From the IMG/VR virus record IMGVR_UViG_3300042555_001232, positions 1 through 20,792 of that record: a DNA stretch of 20,792 nt, one strand, 5' to 3'. Position numbers and translations under genes: made by a program. The notes under the pieces were generated by a model. That model was not told where the DNA came from. It worked only from the letters and a program-made list of their open reading frames with translations, and did not search any database. The stretch's first letter is position 1. Each line of letters begins with the position of its first letter. This DNA comes from a virus. Positions 168 to 12,750 of this stretch are shown here, piece after piece.

Positions 168-197
168 TGTGGTGGGGCAGAACATGGATCGTATATT
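164..197 (+). repeat. 34-bp direct repeat, copy 1
   Basis: A perfect 34-bp repeat of 371-404. It spans the stop codon of the upstream gene and the promoter of the next gene. The two copies flank the 51-codon gene at 219-374, so recombination between them would remove that gene cleanly and leave one working promoter. Confidence 0.9.
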
Positions 198-200
198 CAC
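174..200 (+). promoter_or_regulatory. Early-type bipartite promoter P1
   Basis: GGGGCA (174-179), 12 bp, then TATATTCAC (192-200), followed by an A/T-rich leader to the ATG at 219. It is one of eight elements with the same 12-bp spacing in the small-gene block and is nearly identical to P2. The TATATTCAC box resembles the Bacteroidota TAnnTTTG element. The promoter function is inferred from repetition and position. Confidence 0.7.
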
Positions 201-218
201 GTTATAAAATTTATTATT

Positions 219-374
219 ATGTATAGTTTAAAATGCGATTATTACGGAGCTGAATTTACCTGTCTAGGGGATCTAATAGCTCACATTATGATATCTGGGA
301 TGGATCCAGATCACGAGATTACCAGAGACGGTAAATCGATAGGTGAACGAGCGATCGATTATATTTCATTCTAA
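219..374 (+). CDS. Small hypothetical protein (51 aa)
   Basis: The product starts MYSLKCDYYG and ends AIDYISF. The middle, HIMISGMDPDHEITRDGKS, has no motif I recognise. The start is the first ATG after promoter P1, 18 nt beyond its TATATTCAC box, matching the leaders of the neighbouring genes. The gene is enclosed between two copies of a 34-bp direct repeat, which makes it a self-contained gene-plus-promoter cassette. The Asp/Glu/His-rich centre could bind a metal, but that is a guess. Confidence 0.6.
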   Translation: MYSLKCDYYGAEFTCLGDLIAHIMISGMDPDHEITRDGKSIGERAIDYISF

Positions 375-404
375 TGTGGTGGGGCAGAACATGGATCGTA
401 TATT
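371..404 (+). repeat. 34-bp direct repeat, copy 2
   Basis: A perfect second copy of 164-197, again running from the last codon of the upstream gene through the stop and into the TATATT box. The copies diverge immediately after it (TTCAC in the first, TTGAT here). Confidence 0.9.
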
Positions 405-407
405 GAT
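381..407 (+). promoter_or_regulatory. Early-type bipartite promoter P2
   Basis: GGGGCA (381-386), 12 bp, TATATTGAT (399-407), then a 20-nt A-rich leader to the ATG at 428. It has the same upstream sequence as P1 but a changed downstream end, so the two may differ in strength. Confidence 0.7.
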
Positions 408-427
408 GTTATAATTAAAATTAAAGT

Positions 428-721
428 ATGAATAAGAAAGAAATCAAAAACACCATCACAAGGGAAGTGTGTGCGTTCGTTACTAACCTAGGATACATCA
501 TTGAAGATGATGGGTTCCACGGTTCAATTACGTTCCAGAGACCAGGAACCACGTGTGACGATTCAATTGAGTGGAACCGTAGCTACCAGGAGGCGGTGAC
601 GTTCAACTGGGCTAGTGACCAGACGAAAGCTGACTGTGATAAGATCGATGCACACATGAAACCGATAATTGAACATTATAACGCTCAGTACGTAGACAAA
701 CGTAAGAAAATAGCTGCATAA
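428..721 (+). CDS. Hypothetical protein (97 aa)
   Basis: I do not recognise this protein. It is a soluble mixed alpha/beta sequence: an N-terminal basic helix (MNKKEIKNTITREV), a central beta-rich part (GFHGSITFQRPG) and a C-terminal helix ending in a basic tail (VDKRKKIAA). The centre resembles small phage proteins that look like single-domain DNA- or protein-binding folds, without a diagnostic motif. The start follows promoter P2 directly. It is transcribed alone, with the next promoter beginning about 10 nt after the stop codon. Confidence 0.75.
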   Translation: MNKKEIKNTITREVCAFVTNLGYIIEDDGFHGSITFQRPGTTCDDSIEWNRSYQEAVTFNWASDQTKADCDKIDAHMKPIIEHYNAQYVDKRKKIAA

Positions 722-729
722 TAAACGGG

Positions 730-746
730 GTGGGGCATAGCCCCAC
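730..746 (+). promoter_or_regulatory. Perfect hairpin/palindrome overlapping promoter P3
   Basis: A 7-bp stem, GTGGGGC / GCCCCAC, with loop ATA (737-739). It sits between two genes and includes the upstream box of promoter P3. A hairpin of the same register but different stem sequence occurs at 994-1010. No T-run follows, so a symmetrical operator or an RNA-processing element fits better than a simple terminator. Confidence 0.6.
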
Positions 747-758
747 TCGTATATTCAC
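732..758 (+). promoter_or_regulatory. Early-type bipartite promoter P3
   Basis: GGGGCA (732-737), 12 bp, TATATTCAC (750-758), then a 21-nt leader to the ATG at 780. The upstream box lies in one arm of the 730-746 palindrome. Confidence 0.7.
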
Positions 759-779
759 ATCATAATAAAATTAAAACGT

Positions 780-1004
780 ATGGAAAAGTATCAATTAGAC
801 AATGAACATTATATGTTCGGTGGTAAAGGTGATGTATGGAGCAATACAGCTCACATCGCTAAATCAGGTGAATACACTACGATGTGTGGACGTCCGATGT
901 TATCTAGTAACTGGGTAGCGTTAGAGGGTGTGGAACACATTGGATGCCCTAAATGTGTAGCTAAGTACCAACAGTTAGAAGCAGATAAATGTGTCATGGC
1001 ATAG
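780..1004 (+). CDS. Small zinc-ribbon-like protein (74 aa)
   Basis: The product has the layout HIAKSG...TMCGRP...NW...GCPKC: a His followed by a single Cys in CGR and then a closely spaced Cys pair (GCPKC). Many phages encode short proteins with this H/C-CGR-W-CxxC pattern; they are predicted to bind zinc and their function is not known. The last three codons and the stop (VMA*) lie inside a palindrome (994-1010) that forms part of the next promoter, so gene end and regulatory site overlap. Product class is moderately sure; metal binding is inferred. Confidence 0.75.
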   Translation: MEKYQLDNEHYMFGGKGDVWSNTAHIAKSGEYTTMCGRPMLSSNWVALEGVEHIGCPKCVAKYQQLEADKCVMA

Positions 1005-1010
1005 CCATGA
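994..1010 (+). promoter_or_regulatory. Perfect hairpin/palindrome overlapping promoter P4
   Basis: A 7-bp stem, TCATGGC / GCCATGA, with loop ATA (1001-1003). It lies at the same distance from its TATATTCAC box as the 730-746 hairpin does. The outer stem pairs differ between the two, with the pairing kept. Confidence 0.6.
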
Positions 1011-1022
1011 TTATATATTCAC
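998..1022 (+). promoter_or_regulatory. Early-type bipartite promoter P4
   Basis: GGCA (998-1001), 12 bp, TATATTCAC (1014-1022), then a 17-nt leader to the ATG at 1040. It overlaps the stop codon of the preceding gene, and its presence decides the start of the next one. Confidence 0.65.
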
Positions 1023-1039
1023 GTCATAATAATAATGAT

Positions 1040-1270
1040 ATGAAACAAATAACAACACAACCAGTAGTAACATTTCAAGTAGGCGATCGCGTTCAATTCA
1101 ACAGATCAATTAACGAGCGAGGTATGAGCACGTACCTAAACACTGAATACGGTATCATAACTAAAATGAATAAGGTAACAGCGATAGTGAAAACACAAAC
1201 CGCAGCATGGAAAATGAACATTGATGAGCTAAAGCAATATGTTGATCCATTTAGTGGTTGGGCTGAATAA
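1040..1270 (+). CDS. Small beta-rich hypothetical protein (76 aa)
   Basis: The product starts MKQITTQPVVTFQVGDRVQF and continues with alternating hydrophobic strands (YGIITKM, VTAIVKTQ), a pattern of a small beta-barrel of the SH3/KOW kind. I cannot name a family. An in-frame ATG exists at 989, but the extra 17 codons would be read through promoter P4 and the upstream stop; the ATG at 1040, directly after the promoter leader, is therefore preferred. The C-terminal end (QYVDPFSGWAE) carries the GGCT that serves as the upstream box of the next promoter. Confidence 0.7.
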   Translation: MKQITTQPVVTFQVGDRVQFNRSINERGMSTYLNTEYGIITKMNKVTAIVKTQTAAWKMNIDELKQYVDPFSGWAE

Positions 1271-1285
1271 TAATCATACCTTCAC
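1261..1285 (+). promoter_or_regulatory. Early-type promoter P5 (degenerate)
   Basis: GGCT (1261-1264), 12 bp, TACCTTCAC (1277-1285), then an A-rich leader to the ATG at 1305. Both boxes are weaker matches than P1-P4, but the 12-bp spacing is kept. Confidence 0.5.
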
Positions 1286-1304
1286 GGTACACAAATAATA
1301 AAAC

Positions 1305-1511
1305 ATGAGCAAATTAACATTTACAGACGGTGAAACATTCGATTTAAGTGGTCCATTACGTTTAGAAGAACGAGCTGATGGATGGTATGTGTTAGGGGAA
1401 AACAGAATGATGGCTGTGAACGATGTAAATGAAGGTAATAAATACATTGAACACACTAATTACCAACTTGAACTTATGAGACAATCAGATAATTATAGCT
1501 TTATTAAATAA
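1305..1511 (+). CDS. Small hypothetical protein (68 aa)
   Basis: The product is an acidic, beta-strand-rich sequence (MSKLTFTDGETFDLSGP, then DGWYVLGENRMMAVNDV) with a short helical tail. The DGWYVLGEN segment resembles small phage proteins of unknown function. The start follows promoter P5. Only 6 nt separate its stop from the next ATG, so the two genes are probably cotranscribed, unlike the other small genes here. Confidence 0.7.
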   Translation: MSKLTFTDGETFDLSGPLRLEERADGWYVLGENRMMAVNDVNEGNKYIEHTNYQLELMRQSDNYSFIK

Positions 1512-1517
1512 TAATAT

Positions 1518-1673
1518 ATGAACGTAAACGAATTAAAAGAACAACTACAACAGGACTTATTAAGTCTATTAGAGGGTATGGGTATTGAAGATACATTATC
1601 ACCTAGTGATTATGAAAATCTCAAAAATGAAGTGTGTGATATTGTAATTACTAATGTTAATAAATTAAATTAG
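1518..1673 (+). CDS. Small helical acidic protein (51 aa)
   Basis: The product begins MNVNELKEQLQQDLLSLLEG and reads as two amphipathic helices separated by a Ser-Pro turn (TLSPSDYENL). No family is recognised. No promoter box separates it from the 1305-1511 gene. Its first 15 bases including the T before the ATG (TATGAACGTAAACGA) are identical to the start region of the EF-hand gene at 1809, which suggests a duplicated or exchanged gene start. Confidence 0.65.
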   Translation: MNVNELKEQLQQDLLSLLEGMGIEDTLSPSDYENLKNEVCDIVITNVNKLN

Positions 1674-1676
1674 ATA

Positions 1677-1702
1677 GGGCAAAACACAACTCGTATATTC
1701 AC
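1677..1702 (+). promoter_or_regulatory. Early-type bipartite promoter P6
   Basis: GGGCA (1677-1681), 12 bp, TATATTCAC (1694-1702), then an 18-nt leader (ggtataaaattaaatgat) to the ATG at 1721. It drives the membrane peptide and probably the EF-hand gene. Confidence 0.7.
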
Positions 1703-1720
1703 GGTATAAAATTAAATGAT

Positions 1721-1804
1721 ATGATTATATTAAAAGTATTAGTGTATATAATAGTATTAGCACTTACTATATCATTATTAGGTAATAATAAACAATTAAA
1801 ATAA
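1721..1804 (+). CDS. Tiny membrane peptide (27 aa)
   Basis: The product begins MIILKVLVYIIVLALTISLL and ends GNNKQLK: one hydrophobic helix with a short basic tail. The start lies directly after a good promoter and the stop is 4 nt before the next gene, which supports real expression despite the size. Single-helix phage peptides of this size include holin-like, antiholin and envelope-protein inhibitors, but nothing here selects among them. Confidence 0.5.
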   Translation: MIILKVLVYIIVLALTISLLGNNKQLK

Positions 1805-1808
1805 CAGT

Positions 1809-2045
1809 ATGAACGTAAACGATTTAATGAACATGAACGACATGTACTATGTAGGGAACATAGTTGATGTAGATGGTGATGGATGGGTAAGTAAAGCTGA
1901 AGCCCAAGCTATATTAGATGAAATATGCGATGGTGAAGATAACAATAAAGTAATCGACTGGAACGGAGTATATGACTACGGTTACGGTGATGAATCACCT
2001 GCTGAACATAAGCGTATGTTAGCTGAAGTGGGAATTAAAATATAG
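1809..2045 (+). CDS. EF-hand calcium-binding-like protein (78 aa)
   Basis: Residues 20-31 (DVDGDGWVSKAE) form a canonical 12-residue EF-hand loop, with Asp at positions 1, 3 and 5, Gly at 6, a hydrophobic residue at 8 and Glu at 12. A second, degenerate loop follows at residues 41-52 (DGEDNNKVIDWN), which gives the usual paired arrangement. The first loop also resembles a dockerin repeat. The protein has no signal peptide, so it would act in the cytoplasm. It is 4 nt downstream of the membrane-peptide gene and shares its promoter. Calcium binding is inferred from the motif. What a phage would do with it is unknown; modulation of a host process or a metal-stabilised inhibitor are possible. Confidence 0.8.
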   Translation: MNVNDLMNMNDMYYVGNIVDVDGDGWVSKAEAQAILDEICDGEDNNKVIDWNGVYDYGYGDESPAEHKRMLAEVGIKI

Positions 2046-2052
2046 ATGTGAC

Positions 2053-2079
2053 GGGTCAGAATAATAATCGTATCTTAAT
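2053..2079 (+). promoter_or_regulatory. Early-type promoter P7 (variant)
   Basis: GGGTCA (2053-2058), 12 bp, TATCTTAAT (2071-2079), then an A-rich leader to the ATG at 2100. The spacing is retained but both boxes are off consensus. Confidence 0.5.
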
Positions 2080-2099
2080 AACACAATTAAAAATAAAAT

Positions 2100-2279
2100 A
2101 TGACATTAATCAGTAACAAGTACTTAGAAATCCATTTAATTAAGGGTATAGTATTAGGTGTAGCTAAAGCGGATGACGATTATGCTCTAATGCTCGGGTT
2201 CATCGTGATTGAATTCAAGCCGCAACGCAACGTTAAGTTCAAGCGCGGCACGCATATCGGTAAGCCGTCCACGTTCTAG
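2100..2279 (+). CDS. Small hypothetical protein with GC-shifted 3' half (59 aa)
   Basis: The product starts MTLISNKYLEIHLIKG and ends in a strongly basic tail (FKPQRNVKFKRG...GKPSTF). The first half uses A/T-ending codons like the neighbours. From about 2185 the third positions turn C/G-rich (CTC GGG TTC ATC GTG, then AAG CCG CAA CGC), and this composition continues into the gene-free GC-rich island downstream. The 3' end may therefore have been replaced when the island arrived. The start is the ATG after promoter P7. No family recognised. Confidence 0.6.
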   Translation: MTLISNKYLEIHLIKGIVLGVAKADDDYALMLGFIVIEFKPQRNVKFKRGTHIGKPSTF

Positions 2280-2280
2280 T

Positions 2281-2351
2281 GGGCGCACGGGCGTCTGGGC
2301 GTCTGGTCACACGGGCGCCTGGGCACGCGGGCAAACGGTCATCGGGCGCGT
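2281..2351 (+). repeat. Degenerate 8-bp tandem repeat with 24-bp higher order
   Basis: The stretch divides into nine units near GGGCGYCT: GGGCGCAC, GGGCGTCT twice, GGTCACAC, GGGCGCCT, GGGCACGC, GGGCAAAC, GGTCATC (one base short) and GGGCGCGT. They also group as three 24-bp blocks. GG or GGG recurs every 8 bases on the + strand, so a two-layer G-quadruplex is conceivable. Outer bases (2305-2312 and 2348-2355) could also pair as a long hairpin. Confidence 0.8.
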
Positions 2352-2373
2352 GACCGAAAAAGGTTTCGGAGTC

Positions 2374-2402
2374 GATAGCGGGGCGATAGCGATACAATAG
2401 CG
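2374..2402 (+). repeat. Three 11-bp-spaced GATAGCG repeats
   Basis: GATAGCG at 2374-2380 and 2385-2391 and AATAGCG at 2396-2402, with starts exactly 11 bp apart. This is about one helical turn, which would put protein contacts on one face of the DNA, like short iterons or a multi-site operator. Confidence 0.65.
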
Positions 2403-2501
2403 AAGTGCTCCCACGCTAATTGCGGTCAATCGACGGGCCACGGTCATCGTAAAAAAACTATGGGTATTCTCAACAGAAACACCACCTACAACCATCGATG
2501 A

Positions 2502-2519
2502 GGTATATACGCATATACC
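2502..2519 (+). promoter_or_regulatory. Palindrome GGTATAT-ACGC-ATATACC
   Basis: A perfect 7-bp inverted repeat around ACGC, followed one base later by the palindrome TTTTCGAAAA (2521-2530). It contains one of three GTATATACG 9-mers that lie around the 2639-4153 operon. An operator upstream of promoter P8 is the likeliest reading. Confidence 0.5.
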
Positions 2520-2593
2520 GTTTTCGAAAATACCCCTTTACCCCACCTTTGCAAAATCCCAAAAAGAGGTCTTGAACAAAACGAGTTTCAAGT

Positions 2594-2618
2594 GGCAAAG
2601 TATATACGTTATATTTCC
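2594..2618 (+). promoter_or_regulatory. Promoter P8 of the membrane/lipoprotein/nuclease operon
   Basis: GGCA (2594-2597), 12 bp, TATATTTCC (2610-2618), then an A-rich leader (caaacaaaaataaaggtt) to the ATG at 2639. The 12-bp spacer contains GTATATACG (2600-2608), also present at 2503 and 4153, so regulator binding would fall between the promoter boxes. Confidence 0.6.
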
Positions 2619-2638
2619 ATCAAACAAAAATAAAGGTT

Positions 2639-2824
2639 ATGTTCATTTACTATTTCATCATCAGTGGATTAATTATGGGTGTTTGGGCGTCATATCGCCA
2701 ATACCAAACATCAGATATCAGCGTGTTAGATATCCTATTAAATTTAGTTGGATTTATGTTAATTGGGTGGATAATGTTACCCATTACACTTATTGCATTA
2801 TTAGATAACATTAAAATTAAATAA
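2639..2824 (+). CDS. Small two-helix membrane protein (61 aa)
   Basis: The first hydrophobic segment starts at the N terminus (FIYYFIISGLIMGVW), followed by a polar loop (RQYQTSDIS) and a second segment (LVGFMLIGWIMLPITLIALL) with a short lysine tail. It is the first gene of a four-gene operon; its stop codon abuts the next ATG. An alternative overlapping frame from 2572 lacks a promoter and is rejected. A holin would have this size and topology, but the placement beside a lipoprotein and a nuclease gene fits an envelope or exclusion role as well. The function is not settled. Confidence 0.7.
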   Translation: MFIYYFIISGLIMGVWASYRQYQTSDISVLDILLNLVGFMLIGWIMLPITLIALLDNIKIK

Positions 2825-3475
2825 ATGAAACAGTTTATCGTATTATTCTCAGTATTAGTATTATTCGGTTGTAGTAAAGACGCGTTACAATACCCGTCAC
2901 CATTCACCAATGCAATCAGTGGTCAAACACAAATCACAATGGGTACGCCTAAAGACGCCCGTGGTTATTTCCACTATAAGTTCGATAGAACAAAGTCGTT
3001 CAATTATACTAGCGTTTACGCCGAAGCTACGCGTATCACTAACGAGCGTTATTTATATAACGGTGTTTCAGTCGTTGAAAGTACGTTTGACACCGACACT
3101 TACTGGGTGTTTGATACTCTCACCGTCACTATTCCATTATATAATCCGTTTCGCTCATTATACTCTTCACCATATTTCACAACTCCACTGTCTGTTGGTA
3201 CAAAAACCGTTACTTTGTCGCAATATCGCAACACTATTGTACCATTAATAGCTACTTCCAGCACTTACTTTAAGGAGTATGATGCTCGTATGGATGAATA
3301 TAAACCGAGTGGAAATAATATGTGGACAAAACAATTAATTGGTCCGATTCCAGCTCAATATCGTGGGGATACTATTAAGATATACGTTAAAACATATTGG
3401 GAGTGTGGCAATTATTCACTTACTTATCCCGAACGTACCGAAAAAATTGATTCACTTAGTTTAATTATTGATTAA
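2825..3475 (+). CDS. Probable surface lipoprotein (216 aa)
   Basis: The N terminus MKQFIVLFSVLVLFGC is a lipoprotein signal peptide with lipidation at Cys16. The residues after it, SKDA, give C-x-K-D, close to the Bacteroidota lipoprotein export signal that directs proteins to the cell surface. The mature domain is about 200 residues of beta-strand-rich, Tyr/Thr-rich sequence with no recognised family; its end (GDTIKIYVKTYWECG...) looks like a small beta-sandwich. It is the second gene of the operon, directly joined to the gene before (stop then ATG) and overlapping the next by one base. A phage-made surface lipoprotein in a Bacteroidota cell could block receptors against further phages, but this is inference. 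Confidence 0.75.
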   Translation: MKQFIVLFSVLVLFGCSKDALQYPSPFTNAISGQTQITMGTPKDARGYFHYKFDRTKSFNYTSVYAEATRITNERYLYNGVSVVESTFDTDTYWVFDTLTVTIPLYNPFRSLYSSPYFTTPLSVGTKTVTLSQYRNTIVPLIATSSTYFKEYDARMDEYKPSGNNMWTKQLIGPIPAQYRGDTIKIYVKTYWECGNYSLTYPERTEKIDSLSLIID

Positions 3476-3972
3476 TGATACGATTAACACACGACGAGGC
3501 TAAACAATATCGCCAACTTAATAGCGAAATTGATTTTAAGTATAATATGAAATCCGCTATTGCGTATACACTTACTCCAATTGAGGGTGAAGGTGGATGG
3601 GAGGAAATTACATATTATGGTGCTGCTTGGGTGGATCCAACTAATACACCTCAAAACCCACACTATGTTTATGTGCTTTGTAATCCATCTGTGCCTGGAA
3701 TATGTAAAATTGGTTACACTACCACAACAGTATACGATAGAGTACGCCAAATTAATTTAGCTACTGGCGTTATTACACCATGGTACCCAACATTTGCATA
3801 TAAGTGCCCTAACGGCCGTATGTTGGAAAGTGAAATTCATAATGAACTTGAGAAATTAGGTGCACGGGTCAACAATAAACGTGAGGGTTTTTATATGTCA
3901 TCTGATGATGCACGTAAAATTATTGAAAAATTAGGTTCTAAATATCAAAATCAATTAAATGGCAAAGATTAA
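3475..3972 (+). CDS. T5orf172/Mug113 GIY-YIG-type nuclease domain protein (165 aa)
   Basis: Residues about 63-150 match the T5orf172 (Mug113) branch of the GIY-YIG superfamily: HYVYVLCNP at the start, GICKIGYT about ten residues later, a conserved Arg (R89 or R91), the TGVITPW turn, the acidic LESEIHNEL helix and the REGFY strand. YVYVL and KIGYT correspond to the two GIY-YIG half motifs, and E120 is the best candidate for the metal-binding acid. The roughly 60 N-terminal residues are unrecognised and may recognise a target. Family proteins occur in many phages, sometimes fused to DNA-binding domains; few have tested activity. The start overlaps the upstream stop (TAATG) and the 3' end overlaps the next gene by 14 bases. 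Confidence 0.85.
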   Translation: MIRLTHDEAKQYRQLNSEIDFKYNMKSAIAYTLTPIEGEGGWEEITYYGAAWVDPTNTPQNPHYVYVLCNPSVPGICKIGYTTTTVYDRVRQINLATGVITPWYPTFAYKCPNGRMLESEIHNELEKLGARVNNKREGFYMSSDDARKIIEKLGSKYQNQLNGKD

Positions 3973-4153
3973 TATATTAATGATGGTTATTACTTGGGTA
4001 TTTGGTCATATTTTAATTTACCAAACCCACCATTACTTAACGGAAACTTATGTTTATAACATTCCTTTCATAATAGCGTTGTTCTTTACCGCTATGTACG
4101 CGCATCATCGTTTGTTCCATCATATGACTTTTAAGATTTTATCATATTTATAG
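3959..4153 (+). CDS. Small His-rich membrane protein (64 aa)
   Basis: Two hydrophobic segments (INILMMVITWVFGHILIY and YNIPFIIALFFTAMYA) flank a His-containing loop (THHYLTET), and a second His cluster follows (HHRLFHHMTF). The gene overlaps the nuclease gene by 14 bases and ends the operon. The stop codon lies inside an ATATTTATA box (4144-4152) and next to a GTATATACG site. The histidines could bind metal or haem; no family is recognised. Confidence 0.65.
   Translation: MAKINILMMVITWVFGHILIYQTHHYLTETYVYNIPFIIALFFTAMYAHHRLFHHMTFKILSYL
4144..4152 (+). promoter_or_regulatory. ATATTTATA box (possible late promoter, distant)
   Basis: An exact match to the late-type box found before 6604, 12753 and 18673, but overlapping the end of the upstream gene and 91 nt from the next likely start (4244). 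It could give a longer leader for that gene, or be chance in AT-rich DNA. Confidence 0.3.
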
Positions 4154-4221
4154 TATATACGGATAGTTGTATTAGAGTAGAGTCCACAAATTTAACGAGT
4201 GGGAGCTACGTCTTGTTCAAC

Positions 4222-4230
4222 CTATTTATA
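4222..4230 (+). promoter_or_regulatory. Late-type box before the duplicated-module gene
   Basis: CTATTTATA, one base off the ATATTTATA box, ends 13 nt before the ATG at 4244. It sits directly before a gene preceded by no early-type box, which supports late expression of that gene. Confidence 0.45.
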
Positions 4231-4243
4231 TTTATTGATAACA

Positions 4244-4990
4244 ATGACAGTATATAAAATTAAATCGGAAGACAAAGCTGCGTTTTTAAATCGCTTAGAA
4301 AAGTTGAATATCAACGTTAATTCTAATGATTTAAAGAACAAAAATAAACTTCAAGATGGAAATGTAATTAGTTGGTTTGAATTAACTGTTACTGATCCTG
4401 AACATGAACAACAAATAAATAATATTATAAACCAATCACCCGCAATAAACATAATAAGCGAAATGGAAACTAAAAAGAAAAAAATGACTAAGGACCAATT
4501 AAAAGAAATGGTTCGTCAAGAATTACAAGCTGTTTTAGCTGAAAAGAAAAAAGTTAAAGACGAAGATAAAAAAGAGAAATTAGACGAAAACGAAGTTACT
4601 TTAGAAGAATCTCCAATTGTTGATATCTTAGGTATATTAGCAGGTGTTGGTGGAATTGGTTTAACTGGTGCTGCTATTGCAAAAGCACAAGATATGCTTA
4701 AAGCTAAAAATCCAAAATTATATAATGATTTAGCTAGTATCAAAACATCAATTGCTAAAGCTGATCCTTCTAAGAATTTAGAAGAAAATGAAGAAGAAGT
4801 AAATGAAATGATTGATCCATCTACAGTAGCAGACGTGTTAGGCGTATTAGCAGGTATGGGTGGTATTGCAGCAAGTGCAGTAGCTATTGATAAGTGGCAA
4901 GAAAGAATTAAAATGAAGAACCCAGAATTGTATAAGAAAATGCAAGATCTTGGTACTACAATCAAAAGAGCAAAAGGTATTCAAGACTAA
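4244..4990 (+). CDS. Protein with duplicated glycine-rich module (248 aa), probable late protein
   Basis: Residues 1-70 look like a compact alpha/beta domain (MTVYKIKSEDKAAF...). They are followed by a Lys/Glu-rich helix (KMTKDQLKEMVRQELQAVL) of a kind common in T4-like phage virion proteins. The rest is a tandem duplication: residues about 115-178 and 181-246 share V-D-LG-LAG-GGI...KNP-LY and differ elsewhere. Each copy has a hydrophobic glycine-zipper-like helix (LAGVGGIGLTG, LAGMGGIAASA). The ATG at 4244 is preferred over an in-frame GTG at 4199, which would read through the late-type box. A strong terminator follows. A scaffold, internal head or membrane-interacting virion protein is plausible; not identified. 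Confidence 0.75.
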   Translation: MTVYKIKSEDKAAFLNRLEKLNINVNSNDLKNKNKLQDGNVISWFELTVTDPEHEQQINNIINQSPAINIISEMETKKKKMTKDQLKEMVRQELQAVLAEKKKVKDEDKKEKLDENEVTLEESPIVDILGILAGVGGIGLTGAAIAKAQDMLKAKNPKLYNDLASIKTSIAKADPSKNLEENEEEVNEMIDPSTVADVLGVLAGMGGIAASAVAIDKWQERIKMKNPELYKKMQDLGTTIKRAKGIQD

Positions 4991-5014
4991 TATAGTTTAA
5001 CATTATAACCGATT

Positions 5015-5047
5015 GAGCGGCTTGTGAAAACAGGTCGCTCTTTCTTT
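5015..5047 (+). terminator. Intrinsic terminator with GAAA tetraloop
   Basis: An 11-bp stem (5015-5025 with 5030-5040, two G-U pairs) closed by the tetraloop GAAA (5026-5029) and followed by TTTCTTT. It ends the unit of the 4244 gene and separates it from the sigma-factor operon. Confidence 0.85.
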
Positions 5048-5068
5048 GGTTCCGTTATTTTCCGGTCG

Positions 5069-5077
5069 TATATTGAG
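5069..5077 (+). promoter_or_regulatory. Early-type promoter P9 of the sigma-factor operon
   Basis: TCG then TATATTGAG (5069-5077), the same downstream box as P2, followed by an A-rich leader to the ATG at 5096. The GGGCA box is missing at the expected 12-bp spacing, so activity may depend on another factor or be weaker. Confidence 0.55.
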
Positions 5078-5095
5078 GTTAAAATACTTAAAACA

Positions 5096-5263
5096 ATGAG
5101 ATACAAAGACTTATTATTACAAAAGGTTGAGCAATTAGACATAATGATCAACAACCTAAACTTGATTGCTAGAGAAGGACAGGTTACAGATAACCACTTC
5201 GAGCAGTTAAAAGAACAAATTGAAGAAATTCGTTACCAAATTTCATTAGAAAACGAAGATTAA
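5096..5263 (+). CDS. Small helical protein (55 aa)
   Basis: The product begins MRYKDLLLQKVEQLDIMINN and is almost entirely predicted helix with heptad-like leucines, probably a short coiled coil. The ATG at 5096 follows promoter P9; the longer in-frame GTG at 5024 lies inside the terminator stem and is rejected. It is the first of four closely packed genes ending with the sigma factor. No family recognised. Confidence 0.75.
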   Translation: MRYKDLLLQKVEQLDIMINNLNLIAREGQVTDNHFEQLKEQIEEIRYQISLENED

Positions 5264-5487: not shown

Positions 5488-5772
5488 ATGATTACATTTA
5501 TAGTTTCACTTATAATTACCCTAACTTCAGGATATATTATTTGGAATCTTCTTAGAAAAGTAGAAAAATTAGAAGACGTAACTAACGAACAAAATGAATT
5601 AATTACTACTCTTACAGCTAGTGTAATTAAAATTGACGAAGTAATAACACAATTGGATTCATCAGGTGCATTTGAAAGTGATGATGAAATAGGTACTTTC
5701 TTTGAACAAATTAAGAATATGAGGGATGTTTTATTAGATAATTTAGCTAAAAAAGAAGAAAATAATGTATAA
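5488..5772 (+). CDS. Membrane-anchored coiled-coil protein (94 aa)
   Basis: Residues 3-22 (TFIVSLIITLTSGYIIWNLL) are one transmembrane helix. They are followed by a basic residue pair and a coiled coil (RKVEKLEDVTNEQNELI), then an acidic segment with FESDDEIGTFFEQIKNM. Short proteins of this layout (TM helix, LLRK-EKLED, SDDE-G-FF) are, to my recollection, commonly encoded next to gp55-like genes in T4-like environmental phages; their function is unknown. The gene starts 1 nt after the previous stop and overlaps the sigma gene by 8 bases. Confidence 0.75.
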   Translation: MITFIVSLIITLTSGYIIWNLLRKVEKLEDVTNEQNELITTLTASVIKIDEVITQLDSSGAFESDDEIGTFFEQIKNMRDVLLDNLAKKEENNV

Positions 5773-6559
5773 TGGATATTACGATGGTGGTAATTTTGAT
5801 GCTGCCAAATACCTAGAGGATGAATTAGGACCTGCTTTAACTAAGAAAGGTCGTGTACGTAAACGTAAACCAAAACAACCAAGAATTTACTTTACAGAAG
5901 ATACAGAAAATGCTATTGTTCAATATCTAGCTGAAACTGATCAAGATCTTCGAAATAGAATATATAATGAAAGAATTGCATATGGTTTCTACAAATTAGC
6001 AGAAAATATCATCCATACATTTAAATTCTATTATACCGACACAGATACAATTGAGGAATTAAAACATGAGGTGGTAGCGTTTCTTCTTGAAAAACTTCAC
6101 CTATATAATCAAAATAAAGGTAAAGCATATTCATATTTCGGTACAATTGCAAAGCGTTACTTGATAGTTTACAACCAGAACAACTATAAAAAATTACAAG
6201 AAAAGGTAAATATGGACGAAGTAAACGACGAAAACGATATCTTCGTAGACAATAACATAGGCTTAGATGAAGAGAAGAATGAGCTTAATATGTTTTTAGA
6301 TCAATTCGTTGCTTATATAGATAAACACATCTACACGATATTTCCTAAACAACAAGATGCTAAAACAGCAGATGCTATTGTTGAGTTATTCCGTAAACGT
6401 GAAAATTTAGAAATATTCAATAAGAAAGCACTATACATTTATATACGTGAAATAACAGACGTCGACACACCTCAAATCACTAAGATTATTAAAAAGTTAG
6501 ACGTTATTCGCCTTAAATTATTTAATGAGTTCTATGAACATGGGTACGTTAAAATGTAA
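5765..6559 (+). CDS. gp55-like RNA polymerase sigma factor for late transcription
   Basis: The core at residues about 80-142 (FKFYYTDTDTIEELKHEVV, FLLEKLHLYNQNKGKAYSYF, then GTIAKRYLI) matches the sigma region-2-like segment of T4 gp55 relatives: an acidic-helix region, the F.....GKAYSYF turn and an AKRYLI helix that would bind polymerase and melt the promoter. T4 gp55 replaces the host sigma to read late promoters. The N-terminal 45 residues are basic (KKGRVRKRKPKQP). The C terminus (FNEFYEHGYVKM) lacks an obvious clamp-binding tail such as the one in T4 gp55. It is the last gene of a four-gene operon from an early-type promoter. Its target is proposed to be the ATATTTATA box. Confidence 0.85.
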   Translation: MYNGYYDGGNFDAAKYLEDELGPALTKKGRVRKRKPKQPRIYFTEDTENAIVQYLAETDQDLRNRIYNERIAYGFYKLAENIIHTFKFYYTDTDTIEELKHEVVAFLLEKLHLYNQNKGKAYSYFGTIAKRYLIVYNQNNYKKLQEKVNMDEVNDENDIFVDNNIGLDEEKNELNMFLDQFVAYIDKHIYTIFPKQQDAKTADAIVELFRKRENLEIFNKKALYIYIREITDVDTPQITKIIKKLDVIRLKLFNEFYEHGYVKM

Positions 6560-6573
6560 CCTTTGTTTTTCTC

Positions 6574-6582
6574 ATATTTATA
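6574..6582 (+). promoter_or_regulatory. Late promoter box L1 (ATATTTATA)
   Basis: ATATTTATA ends 21 nt before the ATG at 6604, in the 44-bp gap after the sigma gene, and is the only promoter-like signal before the 6604-12685 operon. T4 late promoters use TATAAATA at the same relative place; this box contains its reverse complement. Confidence 0.55.
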
Positions 6583-6603
6583 CGTAAATAATACATAAAT
6601 ATT

Positions 6604-9473: not shown

Positions 9474-9836
9474 ATGGAAGCTAAACAATTTAAATCATTA
9501 ATTAAAGAAGCAGTACGTGAAGCCGTTCGTGAAGAACTTGGCTTAATGCTGTTAGAACAATTAAAGAGTGGTACAACACCACAACAATCTCAACCACTTA
9601 CTGAAGGTCGCTCAATGTCATTTGACAGCGGGGATGTACATAGTGTTGGTATGAGATCCCAAATGGGAAATAAAATGGCCGAAATGTTTGGAATGCCAGC
9701 AGCTGGAGCGGGAGTTAAACCTCAAACACAATTAAAAGTAGACCCAACAAGTGATAATCCATTTGCTGCGTTTATTAATGATACCGCTGCTAATCTTAGC
9801 CCTCAAGAAATGAGACAAATGTTACAAGGAGGATAA
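9474..9836 (+). CDS. Small virion-type protein (120 aa)
   Basis: It begins with an amphipathic helix KEAVREAVREELGLMLLEQL, a motif seen in several T4-like phage virion proteins and echoed in the 4244-4990 product. It continues with a Gly/Ser/Met-rich flexible part (FDSGDVHSVGMRSQMG) and ends NLSPQEMRQMLQGG. No known domain. It lies in the baseplate operon, overlapping the gp25 gene by one base, so a minor baseplate or hub component is likely. Confidence 0.7.
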   Translation: MEAKQFKSLIKEAVREAVREELGLMLLEQLKSGTTPQQSQPLTEGRSMSFDSGDVHSVGMRSQMGNKMAEMFGMPAAGAGVKPQTQLKVDPTSDNPFAAFINDTAANLSPQEMRQMLQGG

Positions 9837-10246
9837 TGGCAGTACCTAAAACATACCGTATAGACCCTAGAGATTTGCAAAAAAATATTGCAATTGGGGT
9901 TGGTTTGCCTTTTAGTTTACCTTCTGCTTTTAAAAGTACATATAGTACTAAAGAACAGGTAAAATATAATTTGATTAATCTTTTATTAACTAATAAAGGT
10001 GAACGAGTTGAAAATCCTGAATTTGGTTGTGATATAAAAAAATCTATATTTGATTTTATTAATAATGAAAATGTTAGTAAAATTAATAATAATATAAGAA
10101 CGGGTATAGCAATGTTTGTTCCTGAAGTAAATTTAGAGAATGTAATTATTACCCCAACACCTGATCAAAATACAATAAATGTAAAAATAGAATACAGTAT
10201 GAGAATTTCAGGTGAAGCCGATGAAATACAAATTAACTTTGAATAA
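9836..10246 (+). CDS. gp25-like baseplate wedge protein (136 aa)
   Basis: The segment NKGERVENPEFGC at residues 53-65 is the hallmark of the GPW/gp25 family (T4 gp25, phage P2 W), with the usual length near 130 residues. An N-terminal PFSLPSAFKSTYS and a C-terminal strand pair (TINVKIEYSMRISGE) agree. In T4, gp25 forms part of the inner baseplate wedge that nucleates sheath assembly. GGAGG ends 3 nt upstream of the ATG, one of the few Shine-Dalgarno-like sites here, but it is also the coding end of the previous gene. The stop overlaps the next start (TAATG). Confidence 0.9.
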   Translation: MAVPKTYRIDPRDLQKNIAIGVGLPFSLPSAFKSTYSTKEQVKYNLINLLLTNKGERVENPEFGCDIKKSIFDFINNENVSKINNNIRTGIAMFVPEVNLENVIITPTPDQNTINVKIEYSMRISGEADEIQINFE

Positions 10247-12075
10247 TGTCCGAAACTAAAAACATATCATATCTAAATAAAAGCTTTAGTGACTTTAAAG
10301 CCACATTAATAAAGCATGCTAAAACTTATTTCCCTACAGCATATAATGATTTCTCAGACGCATCTCCAGGGATGATGTTTATTGAAATGGCATCTTATGT
10401 AGGTGATGTATTATCATTCTATTTAGATACTCAGTTCCAAGAAAACTTACTTTTATACACAAAGGAAAAAGATAATGCTATATCTTTAGCTTACGCATTG
10501 GGTTATAGACCTAAAATGTCTTATGCTTCCTATGTTGACTTACAAATATCTCAAAGAGTTCCAATCATAACAAACATATTAAACAATACAGACATTCCAG
10601 ATAGCAATTATTATATTGTTATTCCTGAAAACAGTGTTGTAGAAAGTATTAATGGAACTAAGTTTTTAACTATTGAATTAGTTGACTTCTCTAAAGAAGA
10701 AAATAGAACTATTGCTTTTGAAGAAACAGGATATTATAGAGTAACCAAAACAGTAAAGGCTATATCAGCTGAAATCAAAACAACAACTGTTGATTTTGGT
10801 AATACACCACAAAAGTTTACTAGTACTACTATATCTGATAATAGAATATTAAATATATTACAGGTTACGGATGCTGGTAATAATATTTGGTATGAAGTTC
10901 CATATTTAGCTCAACAAGGTATTCCTCAAAAAACTACTAATCCAACATACAACTCGGATTCAATTCCTTACTTATTAAGTTATATTGAAACACCTAGAAG
11001 ATTTGTAACAAGATTTAAGGAAAATGGTGATTTAGAATTACAATTTGGAGCAGGCACAAATGCAGCTTCAGATACTTCTATTTTACCTAATCCAAATAAC
11101 TTAAATTTAGGTACAGATGCTAATGTATATGATCCAACTAATACATTTAATAGAGCAACAGTAGTAACTACAAGAGAATATGGTTTAGCTCCAACTGGTG
11201 TTATGACAATAAAATATCTTGTGGGTGGTGGTATAGCATCAAATGTTTCTTCTAATGAAATTGTAAATAGAAGATTTAACTTAGCTGATATTTCATTTAA
11301 TGGAGCTGTATCAACTCCTCAAGATGTAAATATTTTCAACAGCATGATTATTACAAATCCTGAACCTGCTATTGGAGGTAGAGATGAAGATACAGTTGAA
11401 GAAATTAGACAAAATACTCTTTATTCTTTCTCTTCACAAAATAGAGTTGTAACTAAAGAAGATTATATCAATAGAGTACTTAGTATGCCTAGCCACTTTG
11501 GTGCAGTTGCTAAAGTATATGCTATCAATGATTATGCCTTATCTCAAAACTCAGGAAATGATAGATTATTAGACAATAATCCTTTATCTATTAGTTTATA
11601 TGTTTTAGGATACAATGCAAATAAAAATTTAGTAACCCCATCTTCTGCACTCAAGAATAATATTAAAAACTATTTATCACAGTACAGAATGGCTACAGAT
11701 GCTATTAATATTAAAAATGCTTATTATCTTAATATAGGCATTAACTTTGATATTTCTGTGTTACCCACATTTAATAACAAAGAGGTATTAAGTAATTGCA
11801 TAAATGCTTTAAAAGATAAATTTAGCATTGAGTACATGCAGATTAACAAACCATTAGTTATATCTGATATTAATTCAACTTTAATACAAGTTAAAGGAGT
11901 TCAATCAATAACAAAAGTTGAAGTCGTAAATAAATCTGGTGGTAGTTATTCTCCATACAGTTATGATATTCACGGAGCAACTAGAAATAATATATTATAT
12001 CCATCATTAGATCCATCTATATTTGAAATTAGATTCCCTGATGTTGATATACAAGGTAGAATTGTAACATTATAA
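10246..12075 (+). CDS. gp6-like baseplate wedge protein, baseplate J family (609 aa)
   Basis: The N terminus (FPTAYNDFSDASPGMMFIEM, then ASYVGDVLSFYLDTQFQENL) is the typical start of T4 gp6/baseplate-J homologues in T4-like phages. Residues about 371-425 carry the conserved EPAIGGRDEDTVEEIRQNTL and VVTKEDYINRV segments. Gp6 dimers form the ring that holds the baseplate wedges together, and gp25 packs beside it, which agrees with the adjacent gene. Length is close to T4 gp6 (660 residues). It overlaps the gp25 stop by one base. Confidence 0.9.
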   Translation: MSETKNISYLNKSFSDFKATLIKHAKTYFPTAYNDFSDASPGMMFIEMASYVGDVLSFYLDTQFQENLLLYTKEKDNAISLAYALGYRPKMSYASYVDLQISQRVPIITNILNNTDIPDSNYYIVIPENSVVESINGTKFLTIELVDFSKEENRTIAFEETGYYRVTKTVKAISAEIKTTTVDFGNTPQKFTSTTISDNRILNILQVTDAGNNIWYEVPYLAQQGIPQKTTNPTYNSDSIPYLLSYIETPRRFVTRFKENGDLELQFGAGTNAASDTSILPNPNNLNLGTDANVYDPTNTFNRATVVTTREYGLAPTGVMTIKYLVGGGIASNVSSNEIVNRRFNLADISFNGAVSTPQDVNIFNSMIITNPEPAIGGRDEDTVEEIRQNTLYSFSSQNRVVTKEDYINRVLSMPSHFGAVAKVYAINDYALSQNSGNDRLLDNNPLSISLYVLGYNANKNLVTPSSALKNNIKNYLSQYRMATDAINIKNAYYLNIGINFDISVLPTFNNKEVLSNCINALKDKFSIEYMQINKPLVISDINSTLIQVKGVQSITKVEVVNKSGGSYSPYSYDIHGATRNNILYPSLDPSIFEIRFPDVDIQGRIVTL

Positions 12076-12685: not shown

Positions 12686-12705
12686 TAATACATAATTAAA
12701 TTAGG

Positions 12706-12750
12706 AGTTTCCGGTTGCAATATTTATATATAGTAACCGGAAACTTTTTT
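12706..12750 (+). terminator. Terminator with late promoter box in its loop
   Basis: A perfect 11-bp stem (12706-12716 with 12735-12745) holding GTTTCCGGTT / AACCGGAAAC, with an 18-nt loop (12717-12734) and a run of six T (12745-12750). It ends the baseplate-endolysin unit. The loop contains the ATATTTATA late box of the next unit. Confidence 0.9.
12720..12728 (+). promoter_or_regulatory. Late promoter box L2 inside the terminator loop
   Basis: ATATTTATA followed by TATAGTAA, nearly identical over 17 bases to L3 (12720-12736 versus 18645-18661, one difference). A start site 6-10 bases beyond would fall in the 3' arm of the hairpin, so the new transcript would lack the 5' arm and not terminate. 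The ATG at 12753 is 24 nt after the box. Confidence 0.6.

Follow-up and report, generated by a model that had tools for sequence, protein, structure and literature searches.

Promoters read by the primary sigma factor of Bacteroidota, for example in Flavobacterium johnsoniae, consist of a −33 element, TTTG, and a −7 element, TAnnTTTG (PMC6847099). A MotA box, centred at −30 and 12 ± 1 bp away from the −10 element, takes the place of the −35 element in middle promoters of phage T4 (PMC2988021). Little has been written on how phages of Bacteroidota control transcription, and we found no promoter map for any of them in the open-licence literature. Here we describe an upstream box, GGCAAARY, that stands at a near-constant distance from a Bacteroidota-like −7 element, TATATTYAC, at eight sites (P1–P8) in virus record IMGVR_UViG_3300042555_001232, a fragment of an uncultured phage whose whole length of 20,792 bases was analysed and is called the window below.

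All eight sites (Table 1) were confirmed. The original prediction, which was made from the letters of the window and paired GGGCA-like with TATATT-like boxes at 12 bp, is borne out by the coordinates and by an independent weight matrix trained on 205 sites from other phages, a set that excluded the window and sequences closely related to it. P1–P8 score 28.9, 19.6, 27.0, 22.0, 19.8, 30.4, 16.3 and 11.2 with this matrix, and nothing else in the window exceeds 10 on either strand; dinucleotide shuffles gave 0.04–0.07 sites per window above a score of 14–16. The exact pattern GGGCA-N12-TATATTCAC occurs three times in the window (175, 733 and 1677) and never in 100 dinucleotide shuffles. P1 and P2 are near-copies over about 32 nt and hence not independent, and a 48-nt repeat family of six copies spans P1–P4, P6 and P7. 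P8 is the weakest by score, yet it is kept at the same place in four related phage sequences (G001, G004, G005 and G011). P5, set apart at first because its box reads GGCT, is not of a different kind: its counterpart in G011 reads GGGCTGAGTAATAATCATATATTCAC. The first T of the −7 element precedes the ATG by 26–30 nt at all eight sites.

Table 1. Promoter-like sites and associated features of the window. The first coordinate of the −7 element of P1–P8 is the first T of the TATATT-like box.
Feature	Span	Strand	Upstream element	−7 or late-type element	Gene start	Remarks
P1	168–200	+	GGCAGAAC 176–183	TATATTCAC 192–200	219	weak −33 TGTGG 168–172; predicted +1 about 204
P2	375–407	+	GGCAGAAC 383–390	TATATTGAT 399–407	428	near-copy of P1
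P3	726–758	+	GGCATAGC 734–741	TATATTCAC 750–758	780	box within inverted repeat GTGGGGCATAGCCCCAC
P4	990–1022	+	GGCATAGC 998–1005	TATATTCAC 1014–1022	1040	box within inverted repeat CATGGCATAGCCATG
P5	1253–1285	+	GGCTGAAT 1261–1268	TACCTTCAC 1277–1285	1305	
P6	1670–1702	+	GGCAAAAC 1678–1685	TATATTCAC 1694–1702	1721	27-codon open reading frame 1721–1804, read from the sequence
P7	2047–2079	+	GTCAGAAT 2055–2062	TATCTTAAT 2071–2079	2100	
P8	2586–2618	+	GGCAAAGT 2594–2601	TATATTTCC 2610–2618	2639	
Box-less host-type promoter	5045–5077	+	TTTGG 5045–5049, 19 bp upstream	TATATTGAG 5069–5077	5096	follows terminator-like hairpin 5015–5040; precedes gene for 55 amino acids; counterpart G001:116948
Sigma-like, gp55-like protein	5765–6559	+				264 amino acids; profile and fold matches
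Lone late-type box	6575–6584	+		TATTTATA	6604	
Lone late-type box	12721			TATTTATA-type	12753	
Lone late-type box	18646			TATTTATA-type	18673	

A logo of 255 sites, numbered from the first T of TATATT as 0, has a weak TTGG at −23 to −20, a strong GGCAAARY at −16 to −9, tCG at −3 to −1 and TATATTYAC at 0 to 8, followed by an A-rich leader; in a wider site set, a weak −33 TTG(G) stands 20 bp upstream of TATATT. The GGCA core of the GGGCA box noted at first was thus retained, while the true extent of the box proved to be GGCAAARY. Flavobacterium promoters are numbered with the first T of the −7 element at −12, and their transcripts start 4–5 nt after the element (PMC6847099); on this scale the box spans about −28 to −21 and the residual TTG about −35 to −33. 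The sites follow the coding strand, 255 against nine on the opposite strand.

Across 13 related phage sequences that carry the box, GGCA is separated from TAYMTTYA by 12 bp in 154 cases, by 11 bp in 14 and by any other spacing in 0–2, with a reverse-strand count of one. When every GGCA was counted, in order to avoid the selection inherent in the original prediction, the window and nine relatives held 89 pairs with TATATT or TACATT at 12 bp, 0–9 at other distances and none at 12 bp on the other strand. The spacer is predominantly 12 bp, with 11 bp also occurring. As tCG is conserved just upstream of TATATT, the unconserved gap is about 5 bp and the figure of 12 depends on where the box is cut. 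Within this gap (−8 to −4) the bases are random, with a mean pairwise identity of 0.297 and 91 different 5-mers in 151 sites. Constant spacing over diverged sequence argues for constraint rather than recent copying, in line with the earlier reasoning, and a 12-bp spacing with an unconserved 5-bp stretch is typical of two contacts made by one rigid complex. The sites selected for the spacer-identity, −33 and immuto-promoter sets (the last two are treated below) were required to have a downstream start codon, so that their distances to the ATG are bounded.

Nearly all genes of the window, taken from simple open reading frame (ORF) calls, lie on one strand. Small genes at about 200–2,640 are followed by a gene with a T5orf172 domain (3475) and then by a structural block with baseplate wedge proteins (9836–12075) and an endolysin (12086); no tRNA was found in the window. 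The nearest isolate found was Flavobacterium phage vB_FspM_immuto (NC_055915; immuto hereafter), a 160-kb phage annotated with T4-like gp20 and gp23, in which the 264-amino-acid protein encoded at 5765 has 49% identity over 80% of its length and a baseplate protein 46%. Long environmental relatives in IMG/VR encode the 264-amino-acid protein with up to 91% identity. The relationship to immuto, together with the −7 element, suggests Bacteroidota as the host phylum.

Near-complete genomes of the clade that carries the box have 32–37 strong sites each, 26–32 of them within 80 nt upstream of an ORF start, and 0–2 on the other strand, which is the opposite of a random scatter of such pairs in coding sequence. 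In four of these genomes, 22–30 of the 32–37 strong sites fall in one 25-kb stretch that holds small genes. Most copies thus lie in the small-gene block, but the confinement to such blocks raised in the original prediction does not hold, as boxes are also found in front of a DNA polymerase A gene in G001 and G002 and of other scattered genes, some of them larger. A looser pattern run over IMG/VR returned 53 stretches, and all 47 that were newly fetched share proteins with the box clade, whose known members are all environmental contigs. The phylum of a Ferruginibacter genome was sampled with 296 genomes, among which the true host family may be missing; they gave four matches, and a reversed control six, which is chance level. 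On this result, and on the scattered taxa returned by a species-genome scan, a cellular origin of the element was rejected. Among cultured relatives, no box was present in the whole of immuto or in parts of Mel-JY01, and part of the uncultured record LR756508 contained a single isolated match. With the box at chance level in the phylum genomes and the newly fetched IMG/VR stretches sharing proteins with the clade, it is a phage element and not a host promoter class, which sustains the idea of a phage-specific class; it is restricted to one clade of large T4-like phages related to immuto.

The −7 element was also correctly likened to the Bacteroidota TAnnTTTG box, to which TATATTYA is close. 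In phages of this group, this element has A where TAnnTTTG has its last-position G. The claim that the upstream element is unlike the usual one is right as regards the added GGCAAARY, but a residual −33 persists at the usual distance. Information at the −33 position is about 1.0 bit in box sites, 8% of which have an exact TTG, against 1.6–2.0 bits and 30–38% in box-less sister phages; the standard −33 TTTG at about 19–21 bp from the −7 element, present in sister phages, is reduced to this remnant in the box sites. The host-type TTTG has largely decayed in the phage of the window and is stronger in its sisters, which is what a takeover of the −33 role by the box would produce.

The conserved AT-hook protein of the small-gene block served as a marker for loci and for a tree. 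Thirty-nine loci with close versions of this protein have 2–12 sites each with GGCA at 12 bp; another 19, in which it is 33–37% identical, have none, and most of these show TTG at 20 bp instead. The tree sets 31 box loci apart on one side with full support; long branches make the position of a few rows uncertain. L354, the sole exception, falls among the box-less loci; of its two matches, one does not look like a promoter. Sister phages carry other upstream elements at the same distance, namely GTTG in immuto, TTTGG in G324 and G327, and TTAGG in G325, G326 and partly G324; in L354 and G327, TTTGG is accompanied, at few sites, by RGCGAAA at the same place as the box, an intermediate form. Upstream promoter elements were swapped among sister phages with the geometry kept. 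We also observed GC hairpins with GAAA or TTCG loops nested in the −33/−7 spacer of sister phages (L354:5691, L354:6554 and, in immuto, upstream of 68018 and 70302), an arrangement suggestive of overlap between one gene's terminator and the promoter of the next.

Two further promoter-like classes are found in the same genomes, which makes three, as in T4. One is the box-less TTTG-N20-TATATT type, with 36 cases at 20 bp, 13 at 19 bp and 0–7 elsewhere; the other is a lone TATTTATA, which precedes structural genes. At 12700–12750 of the window, a putative late promoter, TATTTATATA, sits in the loop of a terminator-like hairpin with a T-run behind it, and a similar arrangement occurs before G001:124659. 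The family of the 264-amino-acid protein gave weak matches to Sigma70_r2 (15 of 31 members, best E 0.0021) and to a PHROG sigma family (11 of 31). Its structural model, of medium confidence (pLDDT 72), retrieved mostly sigma factors from the PDB, including T4 gp55 (7d7c_F; probability 0.94, TMt 0.55, E 0.83), with poor E-values for the fold matches. The protein shows no region 4. It is also encoded by the box-less immuto, which makes it likelier to be a late sigma than the reader of the box; a late sigma is probably what it is.

We consider it somewhat probable (roughly 0.55) that the box sites are early or middle promoters at which the host polymerase acts with a phage factor bound to the box in place of the −33 contact, in a MotA-like manner. 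P1–P8 would then form one phage-specific class of individual promoters, each serving one or two small genes. Host RNA polymerase, carrying the primary sigma, would contact TATATTYAC at −7 and start 4–5 nt after the 8-nt −7 element, leaving A-rich leaders of about 14–18 nt. A sequence-specific factor on GGCAAARY, at about −28 to −21, would touch the polymerase in place of a strong −33 TTTG, and this contact would fix the distance at 12 bp, with 11 tolerated; the factor would most likely be a small activator encoded by the phage and either produced early or brought in by the virion. From sequence we infer promoter activity, start sites and timing, and the activator on the box is a prediction. 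It is based on a box that takes the place of the −33 element, stops 12 bp short of the −7 element and is spaced almost rigidly, an arrangement that a DNA-bound activator touching sigma or polymerase would need. In ten phage genomes, multisubunit phage RNA polymerase and sigma region 4 gave no match, all controls being positive, and T7-type RNA polymerase gave none in a search of phage genomes that had no positive control; host RNA polymerase is therefore the likely enzyme. The recurrence of the box in relatives of this phage but not in bacteria suggests that the phages evolved their own way of redirecting this enzyme.

Several observations weigh against this activator reading. MotA and AsiA (Pfam PF09158, PF09114 and PF09010) had no match at E ≤ 1 in the ten phage genomes, in a search whose control genomes gave no true positive, so that a diverged homologue may have escaped it. 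Proteins confined to the box clade and present in all or most of its genomes, which include families of 63, 61 and 191 amino acids, have no recognisable DNA-binding domain. Within the clade there is no trade-off between box strength and residual TTG (rho 0.01), and the presence of RGCGAAA in two sister lineages means that the box may derive from an older element read by the polymerase itself. The binding site of an early activator, suggested in the original prediction, is still the best idea, but no activator was identified among the clade-unique proteins. The basic 63-amino-acid protein, present in each of the eight near-complete genomes with the box and absent from three box-less proteomes, has a small helical model and no known domain and is a weak candidate for this role. 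Two other proteins were rejected as specific readers of the box: the AT-hook protein, present in both box and box-less phages (33–37% identical between the groups), and an 80-amino-acid helix-turn-helix-like protein (G003:109927), for which no homologue was found in the box-carrying G004.

The main alternative, less probable but quite conceivable, is that the host holoenzyme reads the box itself, with the primary sigma or another part of the polymerase contacting GGCAAARY in the spacer, or that the box is a phage-optimised extra contact. T4 early promoters have extra contacts optimised without a phage activator. In favour of this alternative, the −7 element and the residual TTG are of host type, upstream elements of graded form occupy this position in sister phages, and small-gene blocks are usually driven by early promoters that need no phage protein; the lack of an activator among our findings agrees with this. 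The full element is nevertheless at chance level in the phylum sample, which may lack the host family, and the persistence of box-less TTTGG promoters in the same genomes suggests two different readers. That a phage-encoded sigma factor or RNA polymerase reads the element is very unlikely: a sigma-like protein is indeed encoded at 5765–6559, but its occurrence in box-less phages such as immuto, its missing region 4 and the empty searches for region 4 and for both polymerase types, that for the T7 type having no positive control, speak otherwise, and a phage RNA polymerase was rejected as box reader for want of matches.

Two readings fit the fixed spacing less well. The box lies between −33 and −7, where a bound protein blocks polymerase, and some boxes fall within inverted repeats, so that it might be an operator at which a phage repressor covers the spacer and silences these early genes. 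We regard this as improbable, since a repressor needs no base-exact spacing, whereas 154 of the 169 sites at 11–13 bp are at 12; moreover, the box is non-palindromic in most sites and the −33 decay fits replacement, not blocking. It is hardly credible that GGCA is a by-product of the preceding gene's terminator hairpin overlapping the promoter, in spite of perfect inverted repeats at some sites, such as P3 and P4, and of the hairpins nested in promoters of sister phages: outward of the core, 102 of 166 sites lack any pair and just 14 reach three or more, GGCAAARY stays conserved where there is no hairpin, and no T-run follows. A hairpin or terminator was also rejected as the defining feature, since only a minority of the sites have inverted repeats, at a z of about 4 relative to shuffles.

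Between the gene of P7 and P8, the window contains an ORF-free block (2322–2570) with a GC content of up to 0.68 in a phage of 0.32, which is 70–97% identical in many relatives. It holds three GATAGCG-like repeats 11 nt apart, an invariant TGCTCCCA and AATT.CGGTC, and a palindromic GTATATACGCATATACC. No Rfam family was matched in 2000–5200 of the window, and the block had no well-supported RNA structure; by its sequence features it is a candidate replication origin. The AT-hook protein (L097:9471–10118 and relatives in G001–G007, G011 and G328–G331, with diverged forms in G324 and G325) combines a conserved N-terminal domain with as many as four RGRP AT-hooks, and is adjoined by a small protein of repeated RGRP/SARQ units that is conserved in the small-gene block.

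A fixed, clade-specific box tells which genes are co-regulated, allows starts to be predicted with an error of one or two bases and points towards an activator. If that activator exists, these phages would have converged with T4 on a form of sigma appropriation, here directed at the unusual primary sigma of Bacteroidota, and tools for these bacteria might draw separate promoters from it. The comparison of sister phages adds a case in which promoter elements were exchanged and geometry retained.

In comparison with Bacteroidota promoters, the box class has a close −7 element (TATATTYA), a residual TTG at the standard distance and an A-rich leader, but the −7 element ends in A instead of G, the −33 is weak and GGCAAARY is added. 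The small-gene promoters of immuto share the genomic block, the arrangement of one promoter per small gene, the −7 element (TATATTTAG) and a fixed spacing, there of 20 bp, but have GTTG at −33 and no GGCA box. T4 late promoters (TATAAATA, gp55) are matched in these genomes by structural genes with a lone TATTTATA and by a gp55-like sigma, and differ from the box class in having no upstream box. With T4 middle promoters, the box class shares a box that ends 12 ± 1 bp before a −10-type element, lies near −30 and replaces the −35/−33 element, in genomes that also hold host-type and late-type classes and whose relative immuto has T4-like structural genes; it differs in the box itself, which is GGCAAARY and not (a/t)(a/t)(a/t)TGCTTtA, in a −10-type element of the Bacteroidota kind and in the lack of a detected MotA or AsiA homologue. 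We tentatively propose, as a possibility somewhat short of even odds, that a lineage of Bacteroidota phages invented, independently of T4, a system resembling sigma appropriation, in which a small phage protein on GGCAAARY near −25 replaces the −33 contact, while lineages swapped GTTG, TTTGG, TTAGG, TTTGG with RGCGAAA, and GGCAAARY and kept the geometry.

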